Shown here: positions 4,201-55,706 of the stretch, piece after piece | Layout of the letters: every line of letters begins with the position of its first letter | Numbering within the stretch: the first letter of the stretch is position 1 | Origin: Halichondria panicea | Taxonomy: Eukaryota > Porifera > Demospongiae > Suberitida > Halichondriidae | NCBI RefSeq assembly: GCF_963675165.1 | Contig: NC_087381.1 | Coordinates: forward strand, 3,038,001 to 3,102,000 | Length of the DNA stretch: 64,000 nt | Direction: 5' to 3' | Position numbers and translations under genes: made by a program | The notes under the pieces: model-generated | The model's database searches: none | Told to the model about the DNA's origin: nothing | The model's input: only the letters and a program-made list of their open reading frames with translations

Positions 4201-5769
4201 ACTGAGTTGATATTTGTCCAATAGCCCTTGAAGAACTGTACTCACTGCAGTTCATTGTAAACATAATTATATAATTATAACAGGTTGTTAAACAGAAAAC
4301 AGCATAGGGCATGATTACTTATACATAACATTTTATATGCACTATTATAGCGACAAACATTAAAGTAACTTGCATACCATACTGAGTTAAACCTAAATTA
4401 AGTAACTCCTTCCAGGTTAGAAGAGGCCCTGATTTCAAACGGTGATCAAGCATTTCACGAAGACAGTTGCTGTCATCATTAGCCTACTGCTTTCTGATAA
4501 TATCTAGTGTGACAATATGAGCTTTCCCAATCTCTGTTCTGAGAGTAGCACAGTTTATGATGAGCTTCGTTTACGGTGTGAGCACTATAATGTATATACC
4601 GTAGTTAAACGTTAACGGGCGTCACCGTCCTCATCGTTGCACGGAAAGAGAATGGGAGCCAAGCCTATAGCTACAGTTTTGTTCTGGCCTGTTACAGAAT
4701 AGCATTATGAATCTCATTATTTTAAGTGGGTGTTAGCCAATAGTAAGTGTGCCTCTCAGTCAATAGCATGTACAAAATTCACACTCGGTAAAGTTAAGTG
4801 GGTGTGTCCATTTGAAATACTGTAATCTGATTGGAGCCGGTGGAATTCCACGGACAGAATAAAACTGTATTGGGTTCCGTCCTCTTTTCGTACAACAGTA
4901 GAGGCGGCGCCGGGTCTAGTTAAATTCCAAACCACCCATATCAAATAACCGCCCATCCCATACTTTTGCCTGATCGTAGAAGCGCGCATGCGTATAATTG
5001 GGTCAAATGTCAACATGATGGAAGATTTTTCATTGATAAATAGCTATATATATCAGAAACGTAAGACTTAAAACTTGCTAGAGACTTATACAACTTTGTT
5101 AAATCTATCTTAGAACAAACAACAATCATTCAACTTAAGATGATCGAGACTATACTTCCAGCTCAGGCCCCTTTCTCTCTTGTGCCAGGGTGTCTTCGAT
5201 CTGTGATCTGCATGTAACTGTACAGAAGATGGAACTGGGTCGTTTTCACAGTACCATAGCTAACTCTCTTGGATGGGCGCTTGCACGGTTCAGTAGCCAC
5301 ATAATCAAATACCTGCCCACCCCTTCTTTAGCCTAAATACATATAGCTATCAGAACAGGTGGGCGGTTCGATGGTTAACTATGGTATAGATCTACATATA
5401 AGAGTACCCCCATGCAGTTATTTGGCACCGACATTAAATCTTACCCATTCGAGGTCCAGGATTGCTCTCAATGTCTCCAGCTAGCAGCAAGAGGTGGGAA
5501 AGAGAGTGGAGCAACACAACAATTGATATCACCAGAAGACCAACGTTCCTTGTATGTTTTAGGAATTTGTTTTTATCTTGAGAGCTCAGAAATGTGAGAA
5601 TATATAATAAAAGCAATCCTCCTTGAACCACTTTCGCAGTAGTACCCACTGTATCACTGAAGTGTAGAGGCTGGTGTTTTGTCGAGGGAGCTTTACTGTG
5701 TGGTCGTGATCCCCTCCCACCACTGAACAGCCCAATGCGAGCTCTCCACAACTCCACAGAGATCCCCAT
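1..5769 (-). CDS. Gene F: 2A - Death - mid-domain - ankyrin protein, 3' end outside window
   Basis: Exons from 5' to 3': 5445-5769, 3928-4244, 3665-3800, 2594-3599, 2233-2530, 1364-1391, 1117-1262, 429-1058, 191-292 and 1-96 (incomplete). All junctions have GT/AG signals and phases agree, giving about 1028 codons in the window with no stop. Order: two hydrophobic segments plus a 2A-like motif; one Death domain (DD3); linker; a divergent mid-domain; a Pro/Gln/Glu-rich exon found only in this copy; Ser/Asp-rich DSG exon; ankyrin repeats. DD2 is decayed and the phases allow it to be skipped. F is the most divergent copy. The role in Death-domain signalling is inferred from architecture. Gene span and most exons are firm; the exact splice sites rest on signal and frame only. 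Confidence 0.8.
1561..2149. mobile_element. Terminal-inverted-repeat element, ATGCCTCGGT family
   Basis: It lies in the gene F intron. It begins ATGCCTCGGTTGAGG and ends, after an AC-rich tract, with a small hairpin (CCTCGC ... GCACCGAGGCAT); the outer 10 bp are inverted copies. Related full or shortened copies lie at 16090-16354, 39561-39825 and 45300-45838, and end-only copies near 36483-36516 and 50322-50352. No coding capacity seen. Confidence 0.6.
2233..3599 (-). CDS. Gene F divergent mid-domain and unique Pro/Gln-rich exon
   Basis: Exon 2594-3599 opens EFSIPGGCAQETLSSAKW, resembling gene A, then diverges: an acidic Ser-rich stretch, a Cys cluster CPYCKECSPQQFFSKEGCPK that could bind metal, and a C-terminal half matching the family mid-domain (KGCVELHFLVSAAVAEHIFPL). 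It ends in phase 2. Exon 2233-2530 (about 99 residues) restores phase 0 and is rich in Pro, Glu, Gln, Ser and Thr, so probably disordered. It is absent from the other five genes. Function not recognised. Confidence 0.75.
3928..4590 (-). CDS. Gene F Death domain DD3 (3928-4244) and decayed DD2 (about 4390-4590)
   Basis: DD3 is intact, with the helical pattern DVMELTPGEQTDVKG then LKIWKGKNPEQATFKTLLEML and KLRKEEIADQIC typical of Death domains. Its exon begins later than in the other copies (after CTGCAG at 4245), and its first bases TG join the phase-1 end of exon 1 to give Val. The DD2 homologue upstream has several small deletions and in-frame stops, so it is a relic. Skipping it keeps frame, leaving F with a single Death domain directly after the 2A peptide. 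Confidence 0.75.
4591..5444. other. Gene F intron 1, upper part, no coding feature
   Basis: 854 bp between exon 1 and the DD2 relic. The ORF at 4756-5016 has no Death-domain or other similarity that I can see and no paralogous counterpart. DD1, present here in genes A and B, is not detectable. Confidence 0.5.
5445..5769 (-). CDS. Gene F exon 1: double hydrophobic segment plus 2A-like peptide
   Basis: The exon starts at the MGISVELW methionine shared by all six paralogues and ends GDIESNPGPRM plus one base, in phase 1, at a GTAAGA donor. Residues about 47-62 and 76-96 are hydrophobic; the second runs straight into the 2A core. A conserved acceptor (TTCAG then CTAC) lies just before the ATG at about 5774, and a GTGAG donor lies at 5824-5828, so a short 5' UTR intron is likely. 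Confidence 0.85.
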
Positions 5770-6293: not shown

Positions 6294-9200
6294 CTACTTC
6301 CTGTTGAACAGCACACTAGCTACTTGGTATACCAATAGCATCTGGTATATAAGAAAGTGACCACACAATTTTGCTGTGTCCATTGCTGTTATTCCCATCT
6401 GCATAAAAATAATAATTATGATAAAAGAGATGCTGATAATTGTTGAAGTGCAGCATTTACCTTATCCATAACTTTTGGATTGGCTCTATTCTTGAGGAGA
6501 ATACTGACAATCTCTATTTGTCCCTTGATAACTGCTAGCTGTAGAGCTGTCGTTCCTCTGGCATTCTGGACATTGACGTGAGCTTTCGCACCAACCAATA
6601 GTTCCACTATAGCGAGATTACCTCTTTGAGAGGCAAGCATTAAAGGGCTCCATCTCTCCTGCATGTATACATATACAAATAAGTCGGGTTACAAAATATT
6701 TATTCAGCATACAGCATACCGCTTTTGTACTACGTAAGTCTTGGACAAAAACTTGACAGAAGCAATGATTTTGATATAGTATGCAAAAACGGTGTATTAC
6801 ATGTGCTATTATATAAGGGTTCTTTATTTGATGATGTACATGGCAAAGACAATGCACCTTGAGGTCATACGTAATATTAGCATCAGCTCCATTGTTAAGG
6901 AGTACACGGACACACTCTGTTTGTTCATTGTCAGTGGCTTGAAATAGAGCTGTAGATCCATTGATGGAGGAAGCATAATTTACTGGAGCCTTCGCAGCAA
7001 GAAGAAGTTTAACCACAGACGAATGACCCTTTTGTGCCGCTTTCATGAGGGGACTCCACCCACTCTATACAGACAATAATGCACCATAAAATTTATATAT
7101 TATAGGGGATCAAAATTAATTATGATAGCATAAGCATGCATTAATTCACATGCACTAAAAATTAACCTGCATATAGAATGTATCACGTACAACTTTAATA
7201 CACAACAATTAAAGAAAATGTTGGCACGTAATTAGTGCCACAAGCTGTTTATTGGCCAGGTATAGTAGATCGTGGTCAAGGGCCTTTACATAGCCATGTA
7301 ATAACTATTACATACAGTATGCACTCTTACTTTGTCCACAGCTTTTAGATCGGCTCCATTTTTAAGGAAAACTCGGGCACACTCTGTTCGTCCATGAAAA
7401 GCAGCTATTAATAGAGCAGTTGCTCCATGTGGTCCTTGAGCATTAACGCGAGCTTTGGCAGCAACCAATAGTTTCACTATCGCAAGATGACCATTTTGTG
7501 ATGCTATCAATAGAGGGCTCCATCTTTCCTGTATATGTATTATAATTATATACACCACATAATTAGCACACATTTATTAAAACTGAGTCACTCTAATAAT
7601 TAATAGTATGGCTAAGCACGAGTAGCCATACTATTGATTGTTAATTGTTTGTGATGCAGTTTTAAGAACATTTTTAACTGCAGTTTCAGTAAAAACATTA
7701 GCCGCGGCCGTTATTCGAACGTGCGGTCGTCAAGGCAGTAATTGCACGTCGTTAATGACGACGTGCAATTACTAATACGCGATTAATCACTGTACGAATC
7801 ACAGTGAATAATAGGACAACATGCGATTATTATGAATATAGCATTGTAACGACAAAAATTCTGTGTTAATATACTGCACGTATAGCACACATTGTACTCT
7901 CTCTTGAGTGAAAAGCCCTGTTGTATATTATATATATATATATATAGCTGTTGATACCTTGTCGGCAATATTGGCGTCAGCTCCACTCTTAAGGAGTACA
8001 TGGACACACTCTGTATGACCTGCACCAGTGGCTTGAAATAGAGCCGTAGATCCATCCAATAATTGAGCATTAAGTGGAGCCTTTGCATTAATGAGTAAAT
8101 CAACCACAGTGGGGTGACCAAAGTGAGCCGCTGCCATGAGAGCAGTGCCTCCATTCTGCATAACACAAGCAGACAATAAGTATACGTAATTATAATAAGG
8201 TGTCTTACTTCGTCTTTTAGTTTGGCATTGGCAGCATTCTTTAGGAGAACTCTGACACACTCTGTCTGACCGCCAATGGCAGCCAAATGGAGAGCTGTTC
8301 CATTCTTGACACCTCGTGCATTGACAAGAACATTTGCAGCAATCAAAAGTTTCACAATCTTGAGATGACCATCTCGAGCAGACATCATAAGAGTAGTGAA
8401 CCCCATCTATATAATAGTTAGATACTGTTTGGAGGTGTCTATGGGATTTAGAAGCCCAAAGGCACTGATTTAGTATCACGAGCGTAGCGATAAAACAGTG
8501 TCCTAACTCATTTATATACTATTGTAGTTTTTTTGTACAAAGATCAAAGGAAAAACTATGCTAACTAGTGTTCAAGCTGGCGCTGTGCTAATGCCTCTCG
8601 CCATGTTTTTGCTTTCGCTGAAAAGTATTAGAGTGTTATATTAGTTTCTATAATGAATTTTATATTAAAGTTAGCTTATCTATATAAAGTCACTGAGAAG
8701 AAAAGACTTATTTACATGCATCTATTGTTGTATTATGTGGCTTACTAGGACCTCAAGAAAGAAGAAAATTATTTCTTCCAAGATCTGTAGTTCAGTGTAT
8801 ATAATATCTAAGAAGAAAAGACCTGTGTACATGCATATTGTTATCTATATTGTTATATGGTAGTGTTTTGTGGCTTACCAGGCCTTCAAGACAAAGATGA
8901 TTCTGCCAGGAGGATCTGGATCTGGATCTTGGATATTATTATTTTCTCACACGTGGGGAATGAGCGCGCATGCGCATTACATACACAGGAATAATTAAAG
9001 GGTGTGTCCAAAGAGATCAATTTCACAAATGGCTACTGCTAGCTAGCTGTTTTAACAGATATTTTCTGAGTATTGTAGCTAACAAAAAGCTAGCGCTTTA
9101 GTGCAAGGCTAACTCATATGTTGAATAGAAAGTTTGTGAGAACAGATGATGCTATGAAAGATTCTGAAGAGACTGCAACAGCCTTCAATGTGAGTCAAAC

Positions 9201-12200: not shown

Positions 12201-15029
12201 TTCCAACTGACACTTGAGACCATATGGGACACAGTACACCGATGAGTTGCACAGTCTTAGCTATTATTAGAAGCATTCTAGGTACATAAAGATCTCATAG
12301 CATGTTTTGTACCTCTAGCTCTCTTCACAAAAGTCAAAAATGTATTTTTTCTTTTCCAACTGATGCTCACCATTAGGGGGCATGAGAATGACGTTTTAGG
12401 GGGGCTCAGAATATCTTGTAGTGATCATAATTCATGAAACATTGTTTCCCGCGTGTTGAGCAACCGTAACACGGATTGACATCAAAGGCTCTCTGGTGCC
12501 ATGCTGCAAATTCAATGTAAAATGTCACGTGACGCTACTTCCGTTTCCAATCCCTCTCCCTATTCAATCTATGATGTATACAACCATCCACGTGGGTGTT
12601 AAAAGTGCTGATTCAGCACTTACTATTCCAAAGTTTATTGTTTGTTTTGAGTAGCAGTGAAGTAATTTTAGTGTTGCTTATGTTCACTATACTAAATAGG
12701 ACATACTAAAGCTGATGGGAAGCTCGATCTTAGCTAATTAAAGCGGCAAGTACCTTGGTTCGGGGATACATTACTTTTTCCGAAATTCCAACTATCGCAC
12801 ACTTTTGTTTTCTGGATTATTACGTCATCATTGCAAGAGCTACGACGTTGCTATTCAACCCAGCTTGTTCCTAAGGCATGTAAGTCGGCTTGTGTAGGGC
12901 CAGATTCTGCATATCGCTGTTTGTTTTTGCTTACCGTGGTGCTAAATCGTTCGAAAATTCGTATTGTTCGAAGTTTCATTGTTTACTCTAATGCAGTGCA
13001 TGTAGTAATGAATATCATGTACGACTTATTAAACTGTCTAGCACAGCAACTCAGGAGCTAAACCAGACTGGAGGCATGCTGAAACATTTGAGAACAGGGT
13101 TTTATATGCACTGTGGACTAGGATCACAGCAAAGAAGCCTGGAGTCTCATGCAGAGAAGTACGGCTCCTGGAGTAGGATCCCAGAGTCAGCTAACAGAGA
13201 CAAGCCAGACACAATTCTAGATTTCTATTGTATCGACCCTTTTCCACAAACATCAGTAATTATTGGCTTATGTTTTGAATAATAGCCGCATATAGCTGGG
13301 CTAATTATATTGTGGTTTATGTTTCAAATAATAGTCGTGTTTAATAGTACGCAAAAAGCTTCTTAGATTTAGCTCGCCTTTTCTGCGAAACAAAGACTTC
13401 TTTGCAAAATCTGCCAAATTTTAAGCCTTAGTTTTAATGCTACAAGTTTCCTTACAGAGACAGTAGAATCCTGACGTTACATACAAATTGTGATGCCTAA
13501 ATCACCAGGTAAGCCAAACTGAGCGACAGACACACGGACACACAGACAGACTGACAGACTACTGTAACCGAGGCCGCTTACGCGCCTCGGGTTAATTATG
13601 CATTGAAGTGCTACCCTCGGCTGTTTACACAAATAATTATATATAGCAACCAAAAGGGTGTTATACAATAAATACTGGGCAAAGCAGCAAAAAACAGGAG
13701 CAATGCTGAAACTTTTGAAAACAGTAGTGTATGATATATGCATTGTACTAGGGTCACAGCAAAGTTAGCAAAGAAGCCTGGAGTTTTATAAATAAGGCTC
13801 CTGGTATGTTTTTGGGGCTAGGATAAGTAAAGAAGCAAAGAAGCAACAACCACAATTATAATTCTAGCTTTTAGTGACCCTGTTCCATTGTTCCTGGTAT
13901 GGGGTCACTTCAGCTGTAAATACGTAGTCTACCTCGAATAAAGGCCGCGCGTAGCTAGCTGCTAACGTGCAAGCAAGTTTTTTATTTTGCTCGACTTTTA
14001 ATCTACCACTATTAAAGTTGTGTGGAGGCTATCCATGCCGTAAACGCTGAGTATAGCCTCAGATGTCACATACAAACAAACAAACAAACCAACGGATACC
14101 CGTGGCCGCTCGCCCATGCACCTCGGGTAATGATGACTAACCTCGTCTTTGCTTTGTAAGTCACACTCAGCCACTTGAAAAGAAAGTTTAAGCTCCTTCA
14201 GCAAAAATCGTATTAAATTTGGGCTACCAGTTGCAGCAGCAAAATGGATAGGTGTAATTCCATCGATGGCCTTCTCATCCACATTCAGTAGTTGGTGCTG
14301 TTGAATCTCAGACATCAAGTACTTTACTACATCGACGTTCCCACTTCTGCAGGCATTGTGTAGTGGAGAGCAATTATTGTTGTCCAGACTCGCGGGATCG
14401 ACCAGCTGAGTGCTAACAAGGTACTTAACGATATGCAGATGTCCATTGAGCGCAGCAAAATGAAGTGGTGTTTCTTTGTTTGTGGATTCAGTTGCCGCAT
14501 TGAGTTTCCTGTCTTCAATGAAGTACCTAACAATATTGAGATGTCCATAAGCTGCAGCAACGTGAAGTAGAAATTGACCTTGCTCAACAGAATTGTTGCA
14601 GTATAGAACTTCAATCAGGAACCGAACTTGGGTTATTTTTCCATTGAATACGGCTGAATGAAGCTTGATTGGTGGTATTTCATTCCATTTGGCATAAAAG
14701 TGTATGTATGCTGGGAAGGAGTTAATGCCTGACAGCAAACTTGTCAAACGCAAAGCTATGTCGTTCAACTGCAGGAGAAAAACATGATCATGATCGACAA
14801 ACATGGTGGCTGGCTGTATATAGGGTAAAATATACCTCTGGATCTGCGTCGAGGTCAATTTCCAATTTGGTATGTACTGTTGATGAGGTTTGGCTAGGTA
14901 GACGTTTTGATGACACAGTATTATATCCAGAATCAGAATGAGAACTCTTTGATTTCACAGCTATTGACTGATCGTCGAGTTCCACAGATGGCTGAGCACT
15001 TTGATTATCATCGTTGTCCGAGTCAGCAT
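6294..15029 (-). CDS. Gene E DSG exon and ankyrin repeat region
   Basis: The DSG exon 14836-15029 has SSHSDSGYNTVSS. The ankyrin exons are: 14142-14768 (about 6 repeats), 102- and 99-bp single-repeat exons, and about 200-bp double-repeat exons down to 6461-6658. Three of the double-repeat exons (7331-7528, 6858-7064, 6461-6658) open with (E/S)(R/G)WSPL, where D and C have one, so this end grew by tandem exon duplication. The last exon 6294-6398 codes MGITAMDTAKRCGHFLIYQM and ends at a TAG stop. Confidence 0.85.
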
Positions 15030-18000
15030 CTGAAAGTACGAGAAAAAAACCGTGCAGCTAGATTATAGTGCTATAGATTAGCATGTATATATATATATAT
15101 ATACTCCATCAAGCAGCTATAGTGCATAAAATTAATGATCTGTCCATGCTTCAAGAAAATGTATGTAAAACTTACCACTATCTGAACTGTGAGAGGTGAC
15201 ATCCTAATTAAAAAAGAAAGACACTAAGTTCACAGTGATTGCACACACATGCATCAATGATAACATTACTGCACTGATCATATCCAGCTTTACATCTTAA
15301 TGAGTAATTATTTACCTGTACTTCGAAATGATAGTCCTCGCAGTCCAATTGGATTACCCCAAGATCCTTTAGTTCTGCTTCTTGATTGGGTGTGAGTGGG
15401 AAGATGTCGGGAGGAATGAAAGAGGGTACCTCAAACACAAGTTGAACGCAGCCTTCATTAATTCCACAAAGTATTAACGTTTTTACATCAACTGCAAGTA
15501 TTTTTGCTAGATTTTCTTCAAATTGTTTCAAGTAGAGAAGCTCACATTTGTCATAAGTAGAGTCAAGCTTCACGATCATCGTAGTACTATCATCTCTGGA
15601 ACCACAATCAAACTTCGTCGGGTACTGAACCCTTCGTTCCGCATACTCTTTAAACTCTTTAACATAGACTAAAAAGTTGTCCTTGTCTTCATCACTTCCA
15701 AGATGGTCAGTGAGATGCTCAATCAATCCATACGAAAAATATGAAAAATAGCCACGGATAACATCCCATACATCATAGATATCGCTCGCCTTTTGTAGAT
15801 CCTCTTGTTTCTCCCAAAACAAACACTGGTTGGGGCTTTTGAACACTTGCTTGTAGCAGCTCACATCCATTAAACAAGTGGTCAACTGCTTTAAAACAAT
15901 TCGACTTTCCAAAGACTTCCGAAGTTTCATTACCAAATTTGAGAACTTTTTATCCATTTCTAGTGAGTCCAGCTCCCACTTGGCCCATTTGGCAGAGGTG
16001 AGTTTTTCCTGCATACATTTTCCTGATACCACATTAGATTCTGAGAATAGAGAAATGATTGACGGTGAATAAAAGCACAACAGGTACTGATGCCTCGGTG
16101 GAGGTGTCAAAGCTACGTAACATAAAGCTACCAAGAGTTCATAAAGAGCACTGTATAGTATGGCAGCTGTAGTACAAACCACGGTACGTTACATACTATG
16201 TCACTCTCAAACCACATTTTAAGTGGGTGTATAGGTGTAGTGGTTAATTATGACATATCAGCATACACATGCATACGTGGCAGCTGCATGTAGCAGTCTA
16301 CACACACACAAACACACTACTGTATACCTCGCTTACGCGGACGTACCGAGGCATAATGAAGACGTGTCAAAGCTACGTAACATAAAGCTACTAGCTAATA
16401 ACGAGCTGCACTGTGCTAATGCCTCTGCCTTTCGCTCAAAAGTATTGGAGTGTTATAGCATATAGATAAACGAATAGAAAGGGATTGGAAACACCTCACG
16501 TGATCGATTGCAATCTCAACATGTAACGTCACACCCTCAAAATATAGGCTAGTTACACTCCAGAATCTATGCACTGGTGAGCTCTGCCGCTTTTCTCTTC
16601 AGCCGATTTCTACAGGGGAAATCCAGATATGCACTGGGTTTCTAGCATCCACATGGTTTCCCAGATAGCTCCAGCTGATGTTCTAATGTTCACTGGCTGG
16701 GTTTGTGCTCAAAACAGCTACATTCAGTTTAAGGTTTTGTTCCTATATCTCACTTTCGCAAGTCTATTACTTACTGAATGCTGCATTATATGAAAGCCTA
16801 TATTCAGGGAATAACCATCAATGCTGCATTCTATTATAATTGGTAACTACTTGTAGTAAATTTTCTCTATCATGTTTCCGTTCCTTTACAGTGACTTCTA
16901 AGTTAGGGTGAGTATAGCGTTTAACGTGTGTTTATAGTAGAACAGGAATATGACATTTATTTTTTGTATTGCTTTAACACCTGGATATGAGCCATGAATA
17001 CGTTTCGTTACATACATTTTTGACGCTGTGTGTGTATATATCCTCCGTAATAATTGTAAGTATGTCATGTTTGTACGTACGTATTGTGTTAATTTTGTGA
17101 TTCATAATTAATAATTATTACAGAGGAGTTATCAATGACAAGCCTCTCCCAGAGACCCAGGAAAAAATGTTTATACAATCTTACAACAATGTATTAGACA
17201 ATAATAATCGATCTAATTAATTTTTCAAAACAATTAAAAATTATGTCCAATGTTGTAGTGTCTCTCTACCTTTAATACACTTTGCTTCTTGCTTCGAGCA
17301 AAATTGTACTAGTGTAACTACATCTATTATTTTAACAAGTTGGACACAACAACATATCCTCCTCTCATTATCAGTTACACACAATTATCATTATCAATTA
17401 TAAGTTCAGCAGATGCATCTTCTTCTTCAGGGATGTAAACAGTAGCATGCTCCACTAGAGTTGAACCTCCATTACAGTCTATTGACATTCTAGTCCCACA
17501 TAATTTTACAGATTCTATAGGGTCGTTGTCAGAGGAGGTTGGACACGCATCATCATGGCGCCTTCAGTCATGTGATAATTATAAACCTTTATAGAATTCT
17601 TTTGAGGTCAAAGGTGAGAATGTAAAAGCTTGTCAGTGCAAGTAAGAGCTAGAGAACGCTAAAGAGAAATAGATTAATGGTGCTCTGACCTCCTCTGCTC
17701 ATATAGATCATAATCCTGTTAGATAAAAATTGGAAAAGTGCCAAAAAAATCTAAATACTAGTCTAGATCCATCTTGGACTATTTTCAGCAGGGTGAGAGG
17801 GCGGTGGGAATGCTACTGATATCACTACACTAACAAATGACGTGTACGGAATTTTTGGACTAGACCACTTCTGGCTACTTGCAGTGTCTCTGTACAGCCT
17901 GCAGAACAGTGGAGAATCGAGGTGCCTAATGGTGCCTAATCAGTCATTTTAATTAGATTCTTATGAGCGCACGTGATAAAACCTGACGATGGATGACGCG

Positions 18001-36416: not shown

Positions 36417-36484
<68 letters not shown>

Positions 36485-38556: not shown

Positions 38557-38787
38557 CTGAGATAAAGGTACGTGAAGAGGAACTATGGTATTAAACACAG
38601 TACGTCATGTCAATGCATTAAGAATCGGAACTTACAGCTATTATCCTTTGAGGAAGTATAAGAGTTGGCATCCTATAATCAGGAATTAAAGAAGACACTA
38701 TACTATAGTAATGTCAAATAAAACAATATTACAGTAATCATCCAGTCATCTCAATAGACATAATATAATATACAAACACTTATATAC

Positions 38788-39511: not shown

Positions 39512-39560
39512 CTGAGAATAGAGAAATGATTGACGGTGAATAAAAGCACCACAGGTACTG

Positions 39561-39825
39561 ATGCCTCGGTGGAGGTGTCAAAGCTACGTAACATAAAGCT
39601 ACCAAGAGTTCATAAAGAGCACTGTATAGTATGGCAGCTGTAGTACAAACCACGGTACGTTACATACTATGTCACTCTCAAACCACATTTTAAGTGGGTG
39701 TATAGGTGTAGTGGTTAATTATGACATATCAGCATACACATGCATACGTGGCAGCTGCATGTAGCAGTCTACACACACACAAACACACTACTGTATACCT
39801 CGCTTACGCGGACGTACCGAGGCAT
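39561..39825. mobile_element. ATGCCTCGGT-family element, gene C copy
   Basis: Same position and nearly the same sequence as 16090-16354 in gene E, just upstream of the mid-domain exon, so it was present before E and C separated. Confidence 0.6.
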
Positions 39826-41073: not shown

Positions 41074-42084
41074 CTTCAGGTGAGTTAGATGCTTCTTGAA
41101 TACTAGACTGTGTTGGAAGTGAGGTGATGATATCCTCCTGTGTCAAAGAGGTGTCATTAGGCAACGTAAACCGTGAGTTATGGCTAAGCATCACTGAAGC
41201 ACAGGTGTAATTGTTATAGAATGTACACACAAGTTCACCTTCAAGTACTGACACATTTTACTCACTTTTAAGTATTGGCAGATTTGATCAACAATCTCTT
41301 CCTTCCTTAACTTTACCAACATCTCCAGAAGGGTCCTGAATGTCGCTCGTGCAGGATTCTTTCCTTTCCAGAGTTTCAAGCACTTGATCACGGCTAATTG
41401 ATTAGCTTCTGCACTTTTGGCATCGGTTTGTTCACCAGGGGTTAATTCCATCACATCGACATAGAAACCAACATTATCAAAAAAGGCAGCCAAATGTGGT
41501 ATGTGCGTTTGTTGAATTTGACAGTCGACTTGAGAAGGACTGAGTTGATATTTGTCCAATAGCACTTGAAGAACTGTACTCACTGGTTGAGCAGATGATC
41601 CTAATGACAGATATGCTATAACAATTGAATAGTAATTAATATCATTACACCAAATAGCACCATGCAATAAATAATGTACAAAACGTCGATAGAGATCCTC
41701 CTGTCTAATAATTGCTTTCCCAAAATTGTGATATTGAAGCAGTTTTTGGATAATTATAACAGCATGAGTGTAGGGCAATACATAAAATTGTACGCACTGA
41801 CAACAGACGTAAATGCAAGGAATCGTACGTATTAAATTAACAAGTATCTTGCATACCATACTGAGTATTAAGTAACTCCTTCCAGGTTAGAGGAAACACT
41901 GATTTCAAACGGTGATCAAGCATTTCACGAAGACAGGTGCTGCCATCATTAGCATACCGCTTTCTGATGCTATCTAATGTGACATCATCAACATGTAGAG
42001 CTTGCCCAATCTCAAACCATTTGTTCCGAGAGTCGTACAGTTTAGTGTGAGCTTCGTTTAAATCATCCATTGTTAGTGTGTTAT
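41074..42084 (-). CDS. Gene C DD2 (41857-42084), DD3 (41266-41600) and linker (41074-41137)
   Basis: Both Death exons are open and close to gene D. DD3 has two donor sites 27 bp apart: QYLK then GTGAGT, and a repeated CQYLK then GTGAAC, produced by a local duplication. Use of the second would add nine residues in frame. Confidence 0.7.
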
Positions 42085-42202
42085 CTGTATATATAATACA
42101 AAAAACTGGCCGGCACTATAATTATATGTACATACCGGTACATGTATAGCTACTGTATAAGAGCACCCCATGCAGTTAATTGACGCCAACATTAAAACTT
42201 AC

Positions 42203-42522
42203 CCATTCGAGGCCCAGGATTGCTCTCAATGTCTCCAGCTAACAGCAAGAGGTGGGAAAGAGAGTGGAGCAACACAGCAATTGATACCACAAGAAGACCA
42301 ACGTTCACGTTTTAGGAATTCAGTTTTATCTTGAGAGCTCAGAAATGTGAGAATATACAATAAAAGCAATCCTCCTTGAACCACTTTCACAGTAGTACCC
42401 ACTGTATCACTGAAGTGTAGAGGCTGGTGTTTTGTCGAGGGAGCTTTACTGTGTGGTCGCGATCCCCTCCCACCACTGAACAGCCCAATGCGAGCTCTCC
42501 ACAACTCCACAGAGATCCCCAT
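42203..42522 (-). pseudogene. Gene C exon 1 with frameshifted 2A motif
   Basis: 320 bp against 325 in the other five. The sequence ACGTTCACGTTTTAGG near 42301-42316 lacks five bases present in the paralogues (ACGTTCCTTGTACGTTTTAGG). The open frame from the usual ATG ends shortly after. The GDIESNPGPRM frame has an upstream TAA and no ATG after it, so no 2A product is expected. Confidence 0.8.
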
Positions 42523-46200: not shown

Positions 46201-48859
46201 TGCATGCACATGCATGACTGTACATGCATGTTCATGTATAACTATACATGTACCTTCATCAACGAGTCCACTTGTACGCCAGGTTCCTTCAATAACAGCT
46301 TTAGAGCTTCAGTGTGACCATACATTGCAGCAGTCTGAAAAGGCAACCTCCCTTTCTGCACAAAGTAGTAGTAATTGGAAATTGGAGACAATAAACTGAT
46401 CAACAAAAATTAGGTTAACATGGTACATATAATAGTTAGTATCACAACCTCATGCACGTAATATTGGACAAAGCAAACCATGGGTGTATTGGATTTGTAC
46501 TACCGAGGGCGCAGCCCGAGGGAATACATACAACTGCACAAGGTAGTACAATACCGTATATCTTCTAATTTATCGGACACTTCTAATTACCCCGGACACT
46601 CTTTTGGGCAATTTTCGTTGTTCTAATACAACGGACACTCCAGTACTTTAATATTACATTTGTTCTAAATATCCGGACAATACCTTGAAAAGTTGAGTTA
46701 CCATTCATAGACGGCAAGTAAGACTTGGAGTGCTGCAGTTAGATAGCTTTGAGTAGCTAGTTTTAGAAGTTAGTGCAACTATTCAGTCGTACCTTGTTCT
46801 ATTAAACCTAGCTAGCTCGCATGCAGCTGCTTGCTTGTTCTAATTATTCCGGACACTTCGCATGCTCTATAAAAATCTGTTCCAATTATACCTGGACAAT
46901 TTCCAAAATAATTATTTTTTTCTGTCCGATAAATTAGAAGATATACGGTAACAATACACACGCAGATATCCGCATTGATATCGCAGATAGGTATAGTTTG
47001 TACTATGAACACGTATTGATTAGAAGCTGTTATCCAACCCATTTACATGCCGTGCCATGCACTGTGCACATTTTGCACTGTCCACATTTTGTGTGCGTGT
47101 GCTTGCACTTGACAAACCACATTTACAACTTCACACAATCCAGTTCCAATGCACTGATTGGATACTGAAGAATTGATCTTCACAATGTGATCCTAGTGTG
47201 TCACAGTAGTGTTCTATAAAAGATTGAGTGGCTCCCTTAAGGGTGGAGGGTGGGCTTTAGCTAGGGTATATGAATGTACACCCTAGCTAGGGTACATGGG
47301 ATTTGTACCCTGGAGTATCCTGAGAGTTTCACTGGATATTCCTTAGTGTCAGAGCACATCATGGTACAAGTATATAATTACGTCATTTTATGCATGTGAT
47401 TGTCATGTACTATAAGTCAAGTATAATTATGGTAAGAGCGTGCACTGAAGTGCTAACCCTCGGCTTTTACAATATATACATGTAGCAACCAAAAGGGTGC
47501 ATGTTATACAATAAATGCTGCAAAGCAACAAGTAACAGGAGCGATGCTGAAACTTTGATGTGTGTTTTAGTAGTGTATGAGAGACATGTATTGTACTATA
47601 GGGTCACAGCAAAGTCAGCAAAGAAGCCTGGAGTTTTAGAAATAAGGCTCCTGGTATGTTCTTGCATGAGACTAGAATAAGCAAAAAAGCAATAACCACA
47701 ATCATAATTCTAGCTTTTAGTGACCCTGTTCCATTGTTCCTGGTACGGGGTCACTTCAGCTGTAAATACGTAGTCCACCTTGCCGTGTAGCTATAGCTAG
47801 CAACCAACGTGCGAGCAAGCTTCCTATTTGCTCGACAAAAAAGCTCAAAATCTAGGATATCCATGCTGTAAACGCTGAGTAGACTCGGATGTCACACACA
47901 AACAAACAAACAAACCAACGGATACCCGTGGCCGCCCACGCGCCTCGGGTAATGACGACTAACCTTGTCTTTGTTTTGCAGGTCACACTCGGCTATCACA
48001 TGAAAAGAAGGTTTAAGCTCTTTCAGCAAAAATTGGATCAAATTCGGGCTACCAGTTGCAGCAGCAAAATGGATAGGTGTAATTCCATCGATAGCTTTCT
48101 CATTCAAATCGAGTGGTTGTTGTTGCTGAATCTCAGACATCAAGTACTTTACTACATCAATGTTTCCACTTCTGCAGGCATTGTGTAGTGGAGAGCAATC
48201 ATTGTTGTCCACACTCGTGGGATCGACCAGCTGACTGCCGACAAGGTATGTAACAATATGTAGATGTCCATAGAGTGCGGCAAAATGAAGTGGCGTTTCT
48301 TTGTTCGTGGATTCAGTTGCCGGATTGAGTTTCCTGTCTTCAATGAAGTACCTAACAATATTGAGATGTCCATAAGCTGCTGCAGTGTGAAGTAGAAAAT
48401 GCCCTTGCTCAACAGAGTTGTTGCAGTATAGAACTTCAATCAGGAACCGAACTTGGGTTATTTCTCCATTGAATACGGCTGAATGAAGCTTGATTGGTGC
48501 AGGTACTTCATTCCATTTGGTTTGAAGGTGTATGTATGCTGGGAAGGAGTTAATGCCTGACAGCAAACTTGTCAAACGCAAAGCTATGTCGTTCAACTGC
48601 AGGAGAAAAAACACGATAATGATAGACAAACATGGTGGCTGGCATGTATATAGGGTAAAATATACCTCTGGATCTGCGTCGAGGTCAATTTCAAATTCGG
48701 TATCTACTGTTGATGAGGTTTGGCTAGGTAGACGTTTTGATGACACAGTATTATATCCAGAGTCAGAATGAGAACTCTTTGATTTCACTGCTATTGACTG
48801 ATCGTCAAGTTCCACGGATGGCTGAGTGCTTTGATTGTCATCGTTATCTGAGTCAGCAT
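43261..48859 (-). CDS. Gene B DSG exon and ankyrin exons
   Basis: The DSG exon 48666-48859 has SHSDSGYNTVSSKR. Main ankyrin exon 47964-48596. Exon 44607-44810 is 204 bp, one codon longer than in C or E (NAKTIA). The last exon has a different tail (MRMTALHTAKSLSNAYTF) from the other genes. Confidence 0.8.
45300..45838. mobile_element. ATGCCTCGGT-family element, gene B copy
   Basis: Close match to 1561-2149, with an expanded ACACAG tract before the right-end hairpin. Confidence 0.6.
46554..46948. mobile_element. TA-flanked element with perfect 26-bp inverted ends
   Basis: CCGTATATCTTCTAATTTAT plus CGGACA is perfectly inverted at both ends and bordered by TA, as for Tc1/mariner-type targets. 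At least five internal copies of TTCTAAT...CGGACA occur (near 46563, 46584, 46621, 46662, 46837). Non-autonomous. Confidence 0.75.
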
Positions 48860-49131
48860 CTGAGAGTACGAGAACATGCAGAAACCATGCAGCTAGATTA
48901 TATAGTTATGCGTATACTCCATCAAGCAGCTAGTATATAAAATTAATGTATCTGTCAATGCTTCAAGAAAATGTATACGTAAAACTTACCACTATCTGAA
49001 CTGTGAGAATCAGCATCCTAATTAAAAAATAAGTACATGTACATCATAAATGTCGATGATTACACACGCATCAATGATAACATAATTATTACATCACTGA
49101 GCTTTACTTGTAAAATAGATAATAATTATAC

Positions 49132-49852
49132 CTGTACTCGGAAATGATAGTCTCTGCAGTCCAATTGGATTACCCTAAGATCTCTTATTTCTGCTTCTTG
49201 ATTGGGTGTGAGTGGGAAGATGTTGGGAGGAATGAAAGAGGGTACCTCGAACACAAGTTGAACGCAGCCTTCATTAATTTCACGAAGTATTAACATTTTT
49301 ACATCAACTTCAAGTATTTTTGCTAGATTTTCTTCAAATTGTTTCAAGTAGAGAAGCTCACATTTGTCGTAAGTAGAGTCGAGCTTCACGATCATCTTAG
49401 TGCTATCTTCTCTGTAGCCCGAACCAAACTTTGTCGGGTACTGAATCCTTCGTTTAGCATATTTTTCAAATTCTTTCACATAAGCTATTAAGTTATCCTG
49501 GTCCTCTTTACTTCCAAGATGGTCAGTGAGATATTTAATCAAGCCATACGAAAAATATGAAACGTAGTCTCGCATAATATCCCATACATCGTAGAAATCG
49601 CTAGCTGCACGTAATTCATCTCGCTTGTCTCGAAATAAACACTGGTTAGGGCCTTTAAATACTTTCTGGTAGCAGCTCACATCCATTAAACAAGACGTCA
49701 ACTTCAGAATTTCTTCAAAACAATTCGAGTTTCCAAAGACTGCTGAAGTTGGAGCACCAACTTTGAGAAAGCTTTATCCATTTCTAGTGAGTCTAGCTCC
49801 CACTTGGCAGAGGAGGGTGTTTCTTGGGTATAACGTCTTGAAACACTGGATT
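49132..49852 (-). pseudogene. Gene B mid-domain exon with 8-bp insertion
   Basis: 721 bp, that is the 713 bp of gene D plus 8. Before the insertion it reads ESSVSRRYTQETPSSAKWEL; after it, in another frame, LMDVSCYQKVFKGPNQCLFR to the normal end. The remainder is open and very close to gene D. Confidence 0.8.
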
Positions 49853-50296: not shown

Positions 50297-50565
50297 TATC
50301 TAGCTGATACTAAAATAATGAAAGCACCGCGGGTGCTGATGCATCGTGCCAAATAACACCATGCAATAATGTACAAAACGTCGATAGAGATCCTCCTGTC
50401 TAATAATTGCTTTCCCAGATATTGAAGCAGTTTTTGGATAATTATAACAGCAAATATGCATGAGTGTAGGGCAATACATAAAATTGTACGCACTGATGAC
50501 AAACGCAAATGCATCAAAGTGGTAAAAGGAATCGTACGCATTAAATTAACAAGTATCTTGCATAC

Positions 50566-51133
50566 CCGTATTAAGTAACTCCTTCCAGGTTAGAGGAGGC
50601 CCTGATTTCAAACGGTGAGCAAGCATTTCACGAAGACAGGTGCTGTCATCATTAGCACACTGCTTTCTGATGCTATCTAGTGTGACATCATCAACATGTA
50701 GAGCTTGTCCAATCTCAAACCATCTATTCCGAGAGTCGTACAGTTTAGTGTGAGCTTGGTTTAAATCGTTAAGTGTCAGTGTCTCATCTGTATAATACAA
50801 AACAGGGCTGTTATTCGAGCACTGCGAGTAAGTAATTTAAGTAAATACCTGACACGACAAATCCCTCAATTTCATCGGCCACGTCGCTGCGTCCTATTGT
50901 GACATGTCTAAGACTCCTACACAGATCTCCCCAAGTCAGTGAATTATCTGTTGCCTTGATACAATGAGCCAACATTTCTCGGAGACAGTCACCATGGTCA
51001 CTTGACTGCTTCTGAATAGCAGTAAGAGTGTCGTGATCGACTTTGAGAGTTAGCCCAATATTGAACCATTTTGTACGAGCCTTGAACAGCTTGCTGCAAG
51101 CGTCCTTTAGATGGCCAAGAGTCAGAACTTCAT
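50566..51133 (-). CDS. Gene B Death domains DD1 (50849-51133) and DD2 (50566-50787)
   Basis: DD1 is a complete Death-type domain: LKDACSKLFKARTKWFNIGL, GDCLREMLAHCIKA, SLTWGDLCRSLRHVTIGRSD, DEIEGFV. DD2 reads DLNQAHTKLYDSRNRWFEIG and ends LLNTG, six bases shorter than in C-E. Both exons are symmetric in phase 1. Confidence 0.85.
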
Positions 51134-51215
51134 CTGTAAGTAAGATAGGAAATTCAGTTTCCAGGTCCAAACCCACCTTAAAATCTTCACGATTATAATT
51201 CATACTAAATCTTAC

Positions 51216-51540
51216 CCATTTGAGGCCCAGGATTGCTCTCAATGTCTCCAGCTAACGCCAAGAGGTGGGCAAGAGAGTGGAGCAACACAACAATCGATAT
51301 CACCAGGAGACCAACATTCCTTGTATTTTTTAGGAATTTATTTTTATCTTGAGAGCTCAGAAATGTGAGAATATATAATAAAAGCAATCCTCCTTGAACC
51401 ACTTTCGCAGTAGTACCCACTGTATCACTGAAGTGTAGAGGCTGCTGTTTTGTCGAGGGAGCTTTACTGTGTGGTCGCGATCCCTTCCCACCACTGAATA
51501 GCCCAATGCGAGCTCTCCACAACTCCACAGAGATCCCCAT
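51216..51540 (-). CDS. Gene B exon 1: hydrophobic segments plus 2A-like peptide
   Basis: Intact, ending GDIESNPGPQM in phase 1 at GTAAGA. The open frame extends 23 codons upstream of the family start, so an earlier in-frame ATG (51609) exists in this copy only. Confidence 0.85.
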
Positions 51541-52575
51541 GTATAGAGCTGCTGATAGAAAAATTATAGATACCAGATCTACGTACGTACATATACATAG
51601 GCTAGACAAATTTTTTCAATGAATGGTAGATCTAGTCTATATAAACTTATAGACAATTCTAATTAAACTAATATATANNNNNNNNNNNNNNNNNNNNNNN
51701 NNNNNNNNNNNNNNNNNNNNNNNNNNNNNNNNNNNNNNNNNNNNNNNNNNNNNNNNNNNNNNNNNNNNNNNNNNNNNNNNNNNNNNNNNNNNNNNNNNNN
51801 NNNNNNNNNNNNNNNNNNNNNNNNNNNNNNNNNNNNNNNNNNNNNNNNNNNNNNNNNNNNNNNNNNNNNNNNNNNNNTACAAGTTTCCCTACAGAGACAG
51901 TGGAATCCTGATGTTACGTACAAATTGTAATGCCTAAATCACCAGGTAAGCCAAACTGAGCGACAGACACACGGACACACAGACAGACTGACAGACTACT
52001 GTAACCGAGGCCGCTTACGCGCCTCGGGTTAATTATGCATTGAAGTGCTAACCCTTGGCTGTTTACACAAAATAATATATATAGCAACCAAAAGGGTGTT
52101 ATACAATAAATACTGGGCAAAGCAGCAAGAAACAGGAGCAATGCTGAAACTTTTGTGTATGATATATGCATTGTACTATAGGGTCACAGCAAAGTCAGCA
52201 AAGAAGCCTGGAGTTTTATAAATAAGGCTCCTGGTATGTTTTGGGGGCTAGGATAAGTAAAGAAGCAAGCAAAGAAGCAACAACCACAATCATAATTCTA
52301 GCTTTTAGTGACCCTGTTCCATTGTTCCTGGTATGGGGTCACTTCAACTGTAAATACGTAGTCTACCTCGAATAAAGGCCGCGCGTAGCTAGCTGCTAGC
52401 GTGCAAGCAAGTTTTTTATTTTGCTCGACTTTTAATCTACCACTATTAAAGTTGTGTGGAGGCTATCCATGCCGTAAACGCTGAGTATAGAGTCAGATGT
52501 CACACACAAACAAACAAACAAACCAACGGATACCCGTGGCCGCTCGCCCATGCACCTCGGGTAATGATGACTAAC
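51541..52575. other. Gene A/B junction: intron-type repeats and assembly gap
   Basis: 51678-51877 is 200 N. 51878-52565 matches the intron sequence that follows the main ankyrin exon in gene E (13440-14130). The expected nine or so distal ankyrin exons of gene A are missing, so the gap probably stands for several kilobases or for a collapsed duplication. Confidence 0.75.
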
Positions 52576-53442
52576 CTCGTCTTTGCTTTGTAAGTCACAC
52601 TCAGCCACTTGAAAAGAAAGTTTAAGCTCCTTCAGCAAAAATCGTATTAAATTTGGGCTACCAGTTGCAGCAGCAAAATGGATAGGTGTAATTCCATCGA
52701 TGGCCTTCTCATTTACATCGAGTAGTTGGTGCTGTTGAATCTCAGACATCAAGTACTTTACTACATCGACGTTCCCACTTCTGCAGGCATTGTGTAGTGG
52801 AGAGCAATTATTGTTGTCCAGACTTGTGGGATCTACCAGCTGAATGCCGACAAGGTACTTAACGATATGCAGATGTCCATTGAGCGCAGCAAAATGAAGT
52901 GGTGTTTCTTTGTTTGTGGATTCAGTTGCCGCATTGAGTTTCCAGTCTTCAATGAAGTACCTAACAATATTGAGATGTCCATAAGCTGCAGCAACGTGAA
53001 GTAGAAAATGACCTTGCTCAACAGAGTTGCAGTGTAGAACTTCAATCAGGAACCGAACTTGGATTATTTCTCCATTGAATACGGCTGAATGAAGCTTGAT
53101 TGGTGGTACTTCATTCCATTTGGCATGAAGCTGTATGTATGCTGGGAAGGTAATGCCTGATAGCAAACTTCTCAAACGCGTAGCTATATAGTTCAACTGC
53201 AGAAGAAAAACATAATTATGATCGACAAACATGGGTAGGTAAATATACCTCTGGGTCTGCGTCGAGGTCAATTTCAAATTCGGCATGTACTGTTGATGAG
53301 GTTTTGCTAGGTGGATGTTTTGATGACACAGTGCTATATCCAGAATCAGAATGAGAACTCTTTGATTTCGCAGCTATTGACTCATCATCGAGTTCCAGAG
53401 ATGGCTGAGTGCTTTGATTGTCATCGTTGTCCGAGTCAGCAT
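52576..53442 (-). CDS. Gene A DSG exon and main ankyrin exon
   Basis: 53249-53442 carries KSSHSDSGYSTVSSKHPPSK. 52576-53196 codes 207 residues of ankyrin repeats, with small in-frame deletions relative to gene D. Confidence 0.85.
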
Positions 53443-55706
53443 CTGAGAGTACAAGAACAGAAACCGTACAGCTGATTATATTCATGCCCAACAAGCAGCT
53501 ATAGTATTAGCCTCGATCCCAGGCCGAGTTTTCGCTTTTATAACGGTTAGGTGAACAACTAGTTGTTCGCCTAACCGTTATAAAAGCGAAAACTCGGCAA
53601 CCGTTATAAAAGCGAAAACTCGGCCTGGGATCGAGGCTACTATAGTATATAAAATTAAGGTATATCTGTCAATGTGACAAGAAATGTATGTAAAACTTAC
53701 CACTATCTGAACTGTGAGAATTGGCATCCTAATTAAAAAAGAAAGACAGTAAGTACATGACTGATGTACATCATAAATATCGGTGATTGCACACAGTCAC
53801 ATGCATCAATGATAACATTACAGCACTGACAATATCCAGCTTTACATCTGAATGGTACATACCTGTACTTGGAAATGATAGTCCCCGCAGTCCAATTGGA
53901 TCACCCCAAGATCCTTTAGTTCTGCTTCTTGATTGGGTGTGAGTGGGAAGATGTCAAGAGGAATGAAAGAGGGTACCTCGAACATAAGTTGAACACAACC
54001 CTTGTTAATTTCGCGAAGAAACAAAACTTTCATATCAACTTTGAGAGTTTTAGAGATTTTTTTTTGAAATTTTCTCAAGTGTTCAATCTCACATTTGTCA
54101 TAAGTAGAGTCGAGCTTCACAATCATCTCAGTACTATCATTCCCGGAACCAGAACTAAACTTAGTCGGAAACTGAATCCTTCGTTTCGCATATTCTTTGA
54201 AATCTTTCACATACGCTATGAAGTTGTCCTTGTCTTCTTTGTTTCCAAGATTATCAGTGAGATACTTGATCAAATCATACGAAAAATAGGAAACATAGTC
54301 TCGAATAATACGCCATACAGCATGGATATTGCTTGCTGCTTCTAAATCTTGTCGTTTGTCCTTGAAAAAACACTGTTTTTCACCTTTGAACACTGGAGTG
54401 TAGCAACTCAGGTTCATTAAGCAAGACTTTAAATCCTCTAAATCAATTCTCTTGAAAGATTTTTGAAGGTTTGTCTGCAAACTTCCAAACTTGTCATCCA
54501 TTTCTTGTGAGTCTATCAGCCACTCAGAAGAGAGTGTTTCCTGGGTACAGCCTCCTGGTACACTAAATTCTGTAAATAATAAAGAAATGAGTGACCGTGT
54601 GAAGCTTAATGATCTAAGAAGTGTGTAGAAAGATAATTATAGGTGCCACGTGCGACGTACGTTAATTATGATCTATGAGGAAAATTGGAAAGGAGCTTTC
54701 CGCTAAATTCAGTTGGGTCAGATGTTCTTGCATACACACATGTACAATTATTGAACCTAAATTAAGTAATTCCTTCCAGGATAGAGGAGGCCCTGATTTT
54801 AAACGGTGAGCAAGCATTTCACGAAGACAGGTGCTGTCATCATTAGCACACTGCTTTCTGGTGCTATCTAGTGTGACATCATCAACATGTAGAGCTTGTC
54901 CAATCTCAAACCATCTGTTCCGAGAGTCGTATAGTTTAGTGTGAGCTTCTTTTAAATCACCAAGTGTCAGCGTCTCGTCTGTATAATACAGCTGTTAGTG
55001 AGCACGTTATTATAAGTATTTACCTGACACGACAAATCCCTCAATTTCATCAGCCACGTCGCTGCGTCCTATTGTGACATGTCTAAGACTGTTGCACAAA
55101 TCTCCCCAAGTCAGTGAATCTGTTGCCTTGATACAATGAGCCAACATTTCTCGGAGACAGTCACCATGGTCACCAGACTGCTTCTGACTAATAGCAGTAA
55201 GAGTGTCGTGATCGACTTTGAGAGTTAGCCCAATATTGAACCATTCTGTACGAGCCTTGAACAGCTTGCTGCAAGCGTTCTTCAAATGGCCATGGAGAGT
55301 CAGAACTTCATCTGTAAACAAGATAGGAAATTCAGTTTCCAGGAACGAAATCCACCTCTTCACAATTATACTAAATCTTACCCATTCGAGGCCCAGGATT
55401 GCTCTCAACATCTCCAGCTAGCAGCAATAGGTGGGTAAGAGAGTGGAGCAACACAGCAATGGCAATCCCCAGGACACCAGCATTCCTTGTATGTTTTAGT
55501 AAACGTGATTTATCTTGAGAGCTCAAAAACTTAAGAATATACAATAAAAGCAATCCTCCTTGAATCACTTTCGCAGTAGTACCCACTGTATCACTAAAGT
55601 GTAGAGGCTGGAGTTTTGTCGAGGGAGCTTTACTGTGTGGTCGTGATCCCCTCCCACCACTGAACAGCCCAATGCGAGCTCTCCACAACTCCACGGTGAT
55701 CCCCAT
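52576..55706 (-). CDS. Gene A: 2A - DD1 - DD2 - mid-domain - ankyrin protein, 3' part lost in gap
   Basis: Exons: 55382-55706, 55024-55311, 54757-54978, 53863-54569, 53701-53728, 53249-53442, 52576-53196, all in frame (795 codons). No DD3 or linker. The donor after 52576 (GTTAGT) points into the gap, so more ankyrin exons are expected. It is the first gene of the array; its upstream neighbour on the genome is unrelated. Confidence 0.8.
53508..53639. mobile_element. TAGCCTCGAT hairpin element with 9-bp target duplication
   Basis: Near-perfect palindrome TAGCCTCGATCCCAGGCCGA... with part of one arm duplicated. CTATAGTAT flanks both sides (53499-53507, 53640-53648). The paralogous site in gene E (15110) is empty. 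Related hairpins: 58252-58304 and 61320-61415. Confidence 0.8.
53863..54569 (-). CDS. Gene A mid-domain exon
   Basis: 236 codons opening EFSVPGGCTQETLSSEWLID, like gene F, then CLMNLSCYTPVFKGEKQCFF, IIRDYVSYFSYDLIKYLTDN, KLDSTYDKCEIEHLRKFQKK and KGCVQLMFEVPSFIPLDIFP. Intermediate between F and the C-E group. Exon 53701-53728 follows. Confidence 0.8.
54757..55311 (-). CDS. Gene A Death domains DD1 (55024-55311) and DD2 (54757-54978)
   Basis: DD1 carries HLKNACSKLFKARTEWFNIG and GRSDVADEIEGFVVSG. It has one codon more than gene B, through small compensating changes (LTLHGHL, AISQKQSGDHG, ATDSLTW). DD2 ends LLNLG before a GTTCAA donor. Confidence 0.8.
55382..55706 (-). CDS. Gene A exon 1: hydrophobic segments plus 2A-like peptide
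   Basis: Intact. Starts MGITVELW, ends AGDVESNPGPRM in phase 1. The first hydrophobic segment differs from the others (VIQGGLLLLYILKFLS). A GTGAG donor near 55884-55888 and the acceptor before the ATG suggest a 5' UTR intron. Confidence 0.85.

Follow-up and report, generated by a model that had tools for sequence, protein, structure and literature searches.

The window analyzed here, a stretch of 64,000 nucleotides (nt) from the sponge Halichondria panicea (NC_087381.1, positions 3,038,001 to 3,102,000), contains six minus-strand genes, designated A to F, whose leader exon ends in the core of a 2A-like (StopGo) peptide. The sequence D(V/I)ESNPGP is encoded six times on this strand, at positions 5453-5475, 22814-22836, 30289-30311, 42211-42233, 51224-51246, and 55390-55412, and the core octapeptide D(V/I)ExNPGP is present in all six copies. 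No match to the motif was found in any of 100 dinucleotide shuffles of the window, and a search of all six frames for NPGP returned the same six sites and no seventh. All six exons terminate in LLxLAG-D(V/I)ESNPGP-(R/Q)M, directly followed by a phase-1 splice donor.

The exons that carry the 2A are about 325 nt (108 codons) long and share a common ATG. They run from MGI(S/T)VELWRARIGLFSGG(R/K)GSRPHSKAP through two hydrophobic stretches, with a short basic loop between them, to LLxLAG, the 2A core, (R/Q)M, and the GT donor. The leader exons of gene A (55382..55706; MGITVELWRARIG..., two hydrophobic segments, ...LLLLAG-DVESNPGP-RM), gene B (51216..51540; ...LLALAG-DIESNPGP-QM), gene D (30281..30605; ...LLLLAG-DVESNPGP-RM), gene E (22806..23130; ...LLLLAG-DVESNPGP-QM), and gene F (5445..5769; ...LLLLAG-DIESNPGP-RM) have an open frame and a phase-1 donor. 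The leader of gene C (42203..42522) is frameshifted, with its 2A core DIESNPGP intact. A first-pass annotation of this DNA had described a first exon ending in a 2A core in six paralogues, five of them in frame. Both points agree with our results, and the exon proves longer and richer than described, with an N-terminal motif and two hydrophobic helices upstream of the 2A.

We further characterized the hydrophobic part of the leader. The hexapeptide preceding the core is LLLLAG in 15 and LLALAG in one of 16 distinct window-type sites. A 17-residue stretch with a mean hydropathy of 2.32 spans residues 80-96, and the core begins two residues further on, at residue 99. A structure model places helices at residues 37-63 and 66-102, at low confidence (predicted local distance difference test, pLDDT, 63.4; predicted template modelling score, pTM, 0.27). 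Judged from hydropathy and this low-confidence model, the two helices look like a signal anchor or a hairpin. The ELWRARIGLF motif was modelled as a short helix, also at low confidence. N-myristoylation would be conceivable for a protein starting with MGI; the small residue usual at position 6 is absent. The Met after NPGP was considered as an alternative start and dropped, because it is absent from the C14 group and from most C11-type leaders described below, though some, L045 among them, have it.

Of the 18 window-type sites, 16 are distinct, and in all 16 the 2A is followed after 7 nt by a GT donor in phase 1. In genes A to E the next exon opens with ...ACAG|AT. Since the donor is in phase 1 and AT follows ACAG, the junction codon reads Asp and the frame is restored. 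The corresponding introns would be approximately 70-130 nt long, and we infer the splicing from leader to Death exon from the phase of these sites. The first Death exons are located at 55043..55311 (gene A; in frame with its leader and 95% identical to the modelled gene B exon), 50865..51133 (gene B), 41867..42084 (gene C), 29935..30152 (gene D), and 22454..22671 (gene E); the last three were placed by alignment and a phase-matched acceptor, and the gene E exon has no Pfam Death match of its own. Gene C has kept its phase-matched Death exon although its leader is frameshifted. In gene F, the first Death exon lies about 0.95 kilobases (kb) from the 2A (at about 4.4-4.6 kb), with its frame broken and its sequence degraded across two frames. 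Thus, the leader is open in five of six genes, phase-matched splice sites are found in five, and both together in four, as predicted joins. The position of the 2A exon directly before Death domains, as initially annotated, therefore holds for genes A to E; in gene F the first Death exon is degraded.

Further exons and open reading frames (ORFs) follow on the same strand. Second Death exons were recognized by alignment with Death exons in genes A (54761..54978) and B (50570..50787). Further Death exons are located at 41264..41595 in gene C (PF00531, 21.1 bits, just below the cut-off of 22.6), at 29287..29661 in gene D (an ORF resembling those of genes C and E), at 21800..22192 in gene E (an ORF; PF00531, 20.9 bits on 21800-22291), and at 3868..4248 in gene F. 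A middle module with a TRADD-N-like part was identified by alignment in genes A (53845..54636), B (49129..49773; PF20694, 13.1 bits, under the cut-off), C (38754..39659), and E (15211..16188). The middle module of gene D (27770..28549) gives a weak TRADD-like_N match, and gene F has a diverged middle ORF (2590..3636) with no Pfam match at E 0.05. Pfam ankyrin scans covered gene D, whose C-terminal ORF (26563..27351) gives an Ank_2 match of 102.1 bits, and an additional ankyrin ORF that lies between gene E and gene F (7783..8406; PF00023, 46.9 bits). The ankyrin-like ORFs of genes A (52432..53373), B (47892..48905), C (37715..38590), E (13998..14954), and F (342..1106) were assigned by resemblance to that of gene D.

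The Death assignment of the window exons is based on PF00531 matches of 18.5-21.1 bits, all under the cut-off, the lowest being that of the gene B first Death exon. An AlphaFold model of this exon reached a pLDDT of 79.5 and a pTM of 0.67. The top 23 Foldseek matches of the model in the PDB were all Death-domain structures, including FADD, a PIDD complex, ankyrin, RIPK1, and TRADD, with probabilities up to 1.0 and a best E-value of 0.06, none being below 0.001. The model and the matches support a predicted Death fold for the exon after the 2A. For the middle module, PF20694 matches were obtained in four of six members, the best at 16.7 bits (gene D) against a cut-off of 23.7; the TRADD-N assignment draws on these weak scores and on a Gly-Cys, which may represent the turn expected in this domain. 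No NACHT domain was found in the window genes, which carry Death, TRADD-N-like, and ankyrin modules instead.

To determine how widely the element is used, we surveyed one genome (131 Mb) with the strict pattern D(V/I)ExNPGP. The survey returned 116 sites, 45 with and 71 without a G-starting codon at x, compared with no site for the reversed pattern. Gly, the only variant searched at position 12, occurred at one site. Window-type sites were found on the window contig (C5; 12 strict sites), C6 (one), C10 (five), and C13 (one, C13:4031031, with a stop). The family thus extends beyond the window and the six copies first described.

Several other groups of sites were distinguished. The C11 type comprises 11 sites, with an ELWRARIG-type motif in the open frame of the 2A in seven. 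The C14 type is the largest, with 41 sites in one 1.1-Mb stretch and four elsewhere, one of which (C7:3176807) has a Roc-like ORF below the cut-off. Within the C14 array, a same-strand Death exon is located downstream of all 41 sites, within 500 nt in 38 of them, as compared with a mean of 1.1 and a maximum of 6 for random positions. NACHT matches lie within 3 kb of 28 of the 41 sites, and 28 of the 31 NACHT matches in the stretch (E ≤ 1e-60) have a 2A. The C2 array consists of 11 sites; at L072, the only locus read to a sufficient length, the ORF is P-loop GTPase-like, with all Pfam scores below the cut-off. The three C15 sites are followed by NACHT at 1.3, 1.4, and 4.8 kb. One of the two C1 sites has a listed NACHT match, the other a NACHT-like ORF identified by eye. 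In the C7 pair (L081 and L082; C7:4.93-4.95 Mb), the leader of L081, the one scanned, is followed by an astacin-type protease (PF01400, 30.9 bits, cut-off 22.5), an unexpected partner for StopGo. The exons following four C10 sites (two of them read) and a C6/C10 trio are mostly ambiguous. L015 and L078 fall outside this classification, and C11:4571341, C12:5109224, C12:5112012, C13:4058165, C16:2730885, C16:2740084, C17:4071217, C17:4085157, C10:4324135, and C10:4383805 are unsampled. Elsewhere in this genome, similar leaders hence precede ORFs of NACHT, P-loop GTPase-like, and metalloprotease type, and the leader is not peculiar to the window array.

A Death-type exon was found downstream of approximately 76 of the 116 strict sites, namely the 41 sites of the C14 array, 18 of the window type, 11 of the C11 type, the four C14-type sites elsewhere, L074, and L083. 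This count was made with window-, C11-, and C14-type exons as queries, and many of the matches are within a query's own group. Across groups, the C14 exon matches exons of six window-type and nine C11-type sites among the matches listed (150 of 576 candidates scored). The exon of L074 exceeds the Pfam Death cut-off by itself (25.1 bits), that of L083 was assigned from one match at 40% identity, and the C14 exon has no Pfam Death match. No Death match was obtained for L073, L076, L084, and L085, and no Pfam Death match for the next exons of the C2, C1, and C7 groups. As the C2, C1, and C7 exon queries were taken from their own groups, their matches show only that the exon recurs.

The leaders of these groups share a common design. 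A phase-1 donor is located 1-10 nt past NPGP at 59 of 60 distinct sites in seven gene groups; no donor was found within 36 nt of the 2A at the C10 sites and the C6/C10 trio (four distinct sites). Two motifs are shared at the N-terminus. One, WRARIGL or a close variant of it, occurs in the window type, the C11 type, and C15, with WRVRTGL in L010 of the C1 pair; the other, VDLSWTG(V/L)FPC(E/N)LGWRGSAL, occurs in L072 of the C2 array and in the majority of the C14 copies read. Across 23 leaders, ELWRARIG.F near the start and LL and AGD.E.NPG at the end are invariant. ELWRARIGLF and its variants open 2A leaders with middle parts of varied length and sequence (L039-L045, L074, L010). Copies of ELWRARIG without a strict 2A were also seen, in L047 (C4:4050687; none in the 3-kb locus) and in L064 (C5:3.03 Mb), which bears a stop. 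In eight of nine host leaders scored, a hydrophobic 17-residue stretch (mean at least 1.58) either overlaps the start of the core or ends no more than 10 residues from it. In L069-L071 and L086-L105 of the C14 stretch (G000:C14:500842-1625904), the leader is seemingly split by a short putative intron, and several C14 copies have a stop upstream of the VDLSWTG motif, so that the true start is uncertain. From these features, the leader cassette looks like an exon that was shuffled onto different receptors.

We next assessed the conservation of the 2A segment. Among stop-free full-length window-type copies, which were found by protein similarity and not by the motif, 17 of 17 have a strict 2A, and so do 28 of 30 database relatives found by protein similarity, the two misses being one frameshifted copy and one reading NPGA. 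Pairwise counts without a confidence interval were used to determine the ratio of non-synonymous to synonymous substitution rates (dN/dS) in the 17 open of the 18 window-type leaders, which is 0.35 for the whole leader, 0.20 for the N-terminal motif, and 0.14 for the hexapeptide and core. Variable amino-acid columns number 2 of 14 in the hexapeptide and core, compared with 44 of 92 in the rest of the leader (Fisher one-sided p 0.016). Within the octapeptide of 23 C14 copies, the changes are all synonymous. The selection suspected in the first-pass annotation from the conservation of the motif is in line with these values. The relatedness of the copies, with possible exchange of sequence among them, makes these tests supporting rather than conclusive evidence for purifying selection on the 2A segment at the amino-acid level.

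The closest parallel is found in sea urchins, a precedent correctly named at the outset. According to PMC4981915, N-terminal 2As of sea-urchin NLRs can work in cells as skip elements and, in addition, as signal sequences, so that a cytosolic and an exocytic pool arise; the leaders tested there were of 26 residues, and such sequences were present in 14 of 87 NCBI entries, or in 85 of 241 NLR proteins by an earlier count. Like SpNLR2A of Strongylocentrotus purpuratus (PMC4981915), the window genes are host genes in which an N-terminal 2A and a signal-type hydrophobic segment precede a Death-domain receptor of innate-immune type. Unlike SpNLR2A, the window leaders, known here from sequence, are 108 residues long, have an extra N-terminal motif and two helices, are encoded by a single exon with a phase-1 donor, and belong to Death/TRADD-N-like/ankyrin genes. 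SpNLR2A is found on NLRs, whereas other leader groups of this genome precede NACHT, GTPase-like, or metalloprotease ORFs.

In common with viral StopGo sequences as described in PMC12846837, the window copies have the core D(V/I)ExNPGP, a Gly before the Asp, an L-rich hexapeptide ending in (A/S/C)G, and Ser at position 15; unlike these, they are N-terminal and reside in cellular spliced genes. The same paper describes an L-rich, "LLLLSG-like" class (motifs 2 and 6) upstream of viral D-type StopGo. It reports activity in reticulocyte lysate for an example of motif 6, and an almost complete loss of activity, with few exceptions, when residues characteristic of the motifs under test were mutated. 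The hexapeptides LLLLAG, LLLQSG, LLLQCG, and LLILSG, assigned by eye, fit this L-rich (A/S/C)G class.

In the sponge Amphimedon, PMC8195603 describes 357 TRADD-N proteins, mostly with one to three Death-like domains, a TRADD-N, and a variable end, ankyrins being among the commonest. The window genes resemble these in their Death-like, TRADD-N-like, and ankyrin order, with the limit that their TRADD-N match is weak. The terms NPGP, 2A-like, 2A peptide, and signal peptide are absent from the main text of PMC8195603, and NPGP and 2A-like from that of a sponge NLR paper (PMC12909245). Among the matches listed in open-licence PMC papers there was no report of a 2A in sponge genes, which is not proof of absence. 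PMC12846837 (2026) describes StopGo in cellular genes as rare and uses sea-urchin proteins as its worked example. Compared with this reported rarity, 116 strict sites, approximately 76 of them with a Death-type exon, occur in the one genome surveyed here. The element is of a known kind, and its use is unusually broad for a cellular genome.

The sequence anatomy, the splice-site phase, the conservation among copies, the recurrence across the genome, and the predicted Death fold led us to the following proposal, which we consider probable as a whole. The first exon is best read as a self-contained leader cassette, consisting of the N-terminal motif, two hydrophobic helices, and the 2A, which would be released by StopGo and leave mostly a cytosolic receptor together with some membrane-fused form. 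If the window genes are expressed, the NPG|P break would occur a few nucleotides before the phase-1 intron, and in most translation rounds the Gly-Pro bond would not be formed. A leader of about 105 residues would thereby be freed as a separate membrane-seeking peptide, and the ribosome would continue to produce a cytosolic Death/TRADD-N-like/ankyrin protein starting with Pro. When skipping fails, the receptor would stay fused to the leader and be directed to the membrane or the secretory route, giving the protein a dual location. Since the leader appears to be a two-helix peptide of membrane type, its release or retention would change the location of the receptor and not just trim the N-terminus. 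The dual-targeting logic of the urchin proteins is thus the most economical reading for the window leaders.

One alternative is that the exon encodes an ordinary signal or anchor leader with an inert or weak NPGP, and that each gene makes a single, full-length, membrane-tethered Death/ankyrin protein. The leader does have hydrophobic segments, and an L-rich h-region with small residues can resemble an L-rich 2A context. However, anchoring needs hydrophobicity and not D(V/I)ExNPGP, and the octapeptide persists in leaders with next to nothing in common between their two ends, is strict in nearly all relatives from the protein search, and coincides with the lowest dN/dS of the leader. This makes the alternative unlikely in our view. 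A further explanation, that gene conversion and recent tandem duplication rather than selection keep the motif in drifting copies of a once-active exon, appears very improbable. It would account for stop-free copies that share 81-98% identity with the query copy and lie mostly in clusters, for the frameshifted window leader and further copies with stops, and for database copies such as P0001, which reads NPGA, and P0037, in which the core is lost; against it stand the open frame in 17 of 18 copies, the dN/dS values given above, and unlike leaders on other contigs that encode the same octapeptide with different codons.

Non-LTR retrotransposons were considered as a third source, with the exon stemming from a 5' ORF captured by host genes and the 2A persisting as a relic. 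Non-LTR 2As have already been described (PMC4981915), and at least six strict sites of this genome lie in elements resembling long interspersed nuclear elements (LINEs), with an endonuclease (EN)/PHD-type ORF or a reverse transcriptase (RT) downstream: C1:10392692, C2:5497498, C3:1931384, and C11:6417779 are followed by RVT_1, and C2:6752716 and C6:6716505 by endonuclease/RT-like ORFs. The 2A-bearing APE-type non-LTR retrotransposons have an octapeptide identical to that of the window, and LINE-like elements carrying it are present elsewhere in this genome. In contrast to them, the window has a splice donor at the 2A and no EN/RT match: EN and RT pieces of this genome's LINE-like loci gave no tblastn match in the window, though they do match LINE-like loci, and the nearest RVT_1 match on the window contig is about 295 kb away among the matches listed (150 of 616 candidates scored). 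The initial statement that no reverse transcriptase is nearby is supported by these results. At the five LINE-like sites read, moreover, the 2A runs on into the ORF, with no donor within 36 nt in four and one at 28 nt in the fifth, and the ELWRARIG motif was not seen in the open frame read. A 2A persisting as a retrotransposon relic is therefore a decidedly improbable account of the window exons, and the cassette may nevertheless descend from an ancient capture of this kind. Five LINE-like loci, L012, L014, L016, L028, and L079, have a zinc-finger-like stretch directly after the 2A and an endonuclease-like ORF. A viral or bacterial origin of the leader was also considered and rejected, as tblastn-confirmed relatives were found neither in viral contigs (animal viruses outside the collection not covered) nor in bacterial or archaeal genomes.

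A modular leader released by StopGo thus is the reading that we prefer, and several observations weigh against it. Some copies are in decay, as seen from the one window leader of six that is broken and from the degraded Death exon of one gene. The signal-type character of the leader is read from hydropathy and a low-confidence model, and the strongest hydrophobic stretch of the C7 leader lies further upstream and not beside the 2A. Of the 53 Death exons in the C14 stretch, 15 are without a strict 2A in the 500 nt upstream. As the motif itself served to pick the C14 copies, the conservation of their octapeptide partly reflects site selection; as the copies are close, gene conversion could add to the apparent conservation. 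Finally, those database matches to joined products that were read and cover most of the query are intron read-throughs or have an absent or decayed 2A. A joined leader and Death query gave 24 matches and a joined C14 2A and Death query 104, and no transcript support was found among the 11 matches read. P0031 covers nearly all of the joined leader and Death query, with an 81-nt (27-codon) intron read through in frame. Since P0031 and P0040-P0042 retain intron-encoded residues, they are genomic read-throughs and not transcripts. P0065 (94% coverage) and P0050 (83%) are without a 2A, and in P0037 (66%) the 2A has decayed and NPGP is lost.

If the 2As are active, many of the Death-domain receptors of one animal would have an intrinsic StopGo switch that sets their location to membrane or cytosol. 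With up to about 100 natural cellular 2As, the tuning of skipping efficiency could further be studied, and it could be tested in a simple way if the device was inherited or re-invented in urchins and this animal. In a broader and more tentative proposal, which we would place somewhat short of even chances, StopGo is a standard, exon-shuffled part of innate immunity in this animal. Phase-1 cassettes made of a membrane helix and a 2A would stand before genes of at least seven groups, of Death-type, NACHT, GTPase-like, and metalloprotease kind, and each gene would give a free cytosolic and a membrane-held receptor from one mRNA at a ratio that could be shifted by the cell or by a pathogen targeting translation.

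Two of the database relatives are of additional note. P0001, like P0037 a close relative of the window leader, is represented by ten member sequences. In P0031 the intron is open in frame, and the 2A and the Death domain would therefore share one frame even with the intron retained.

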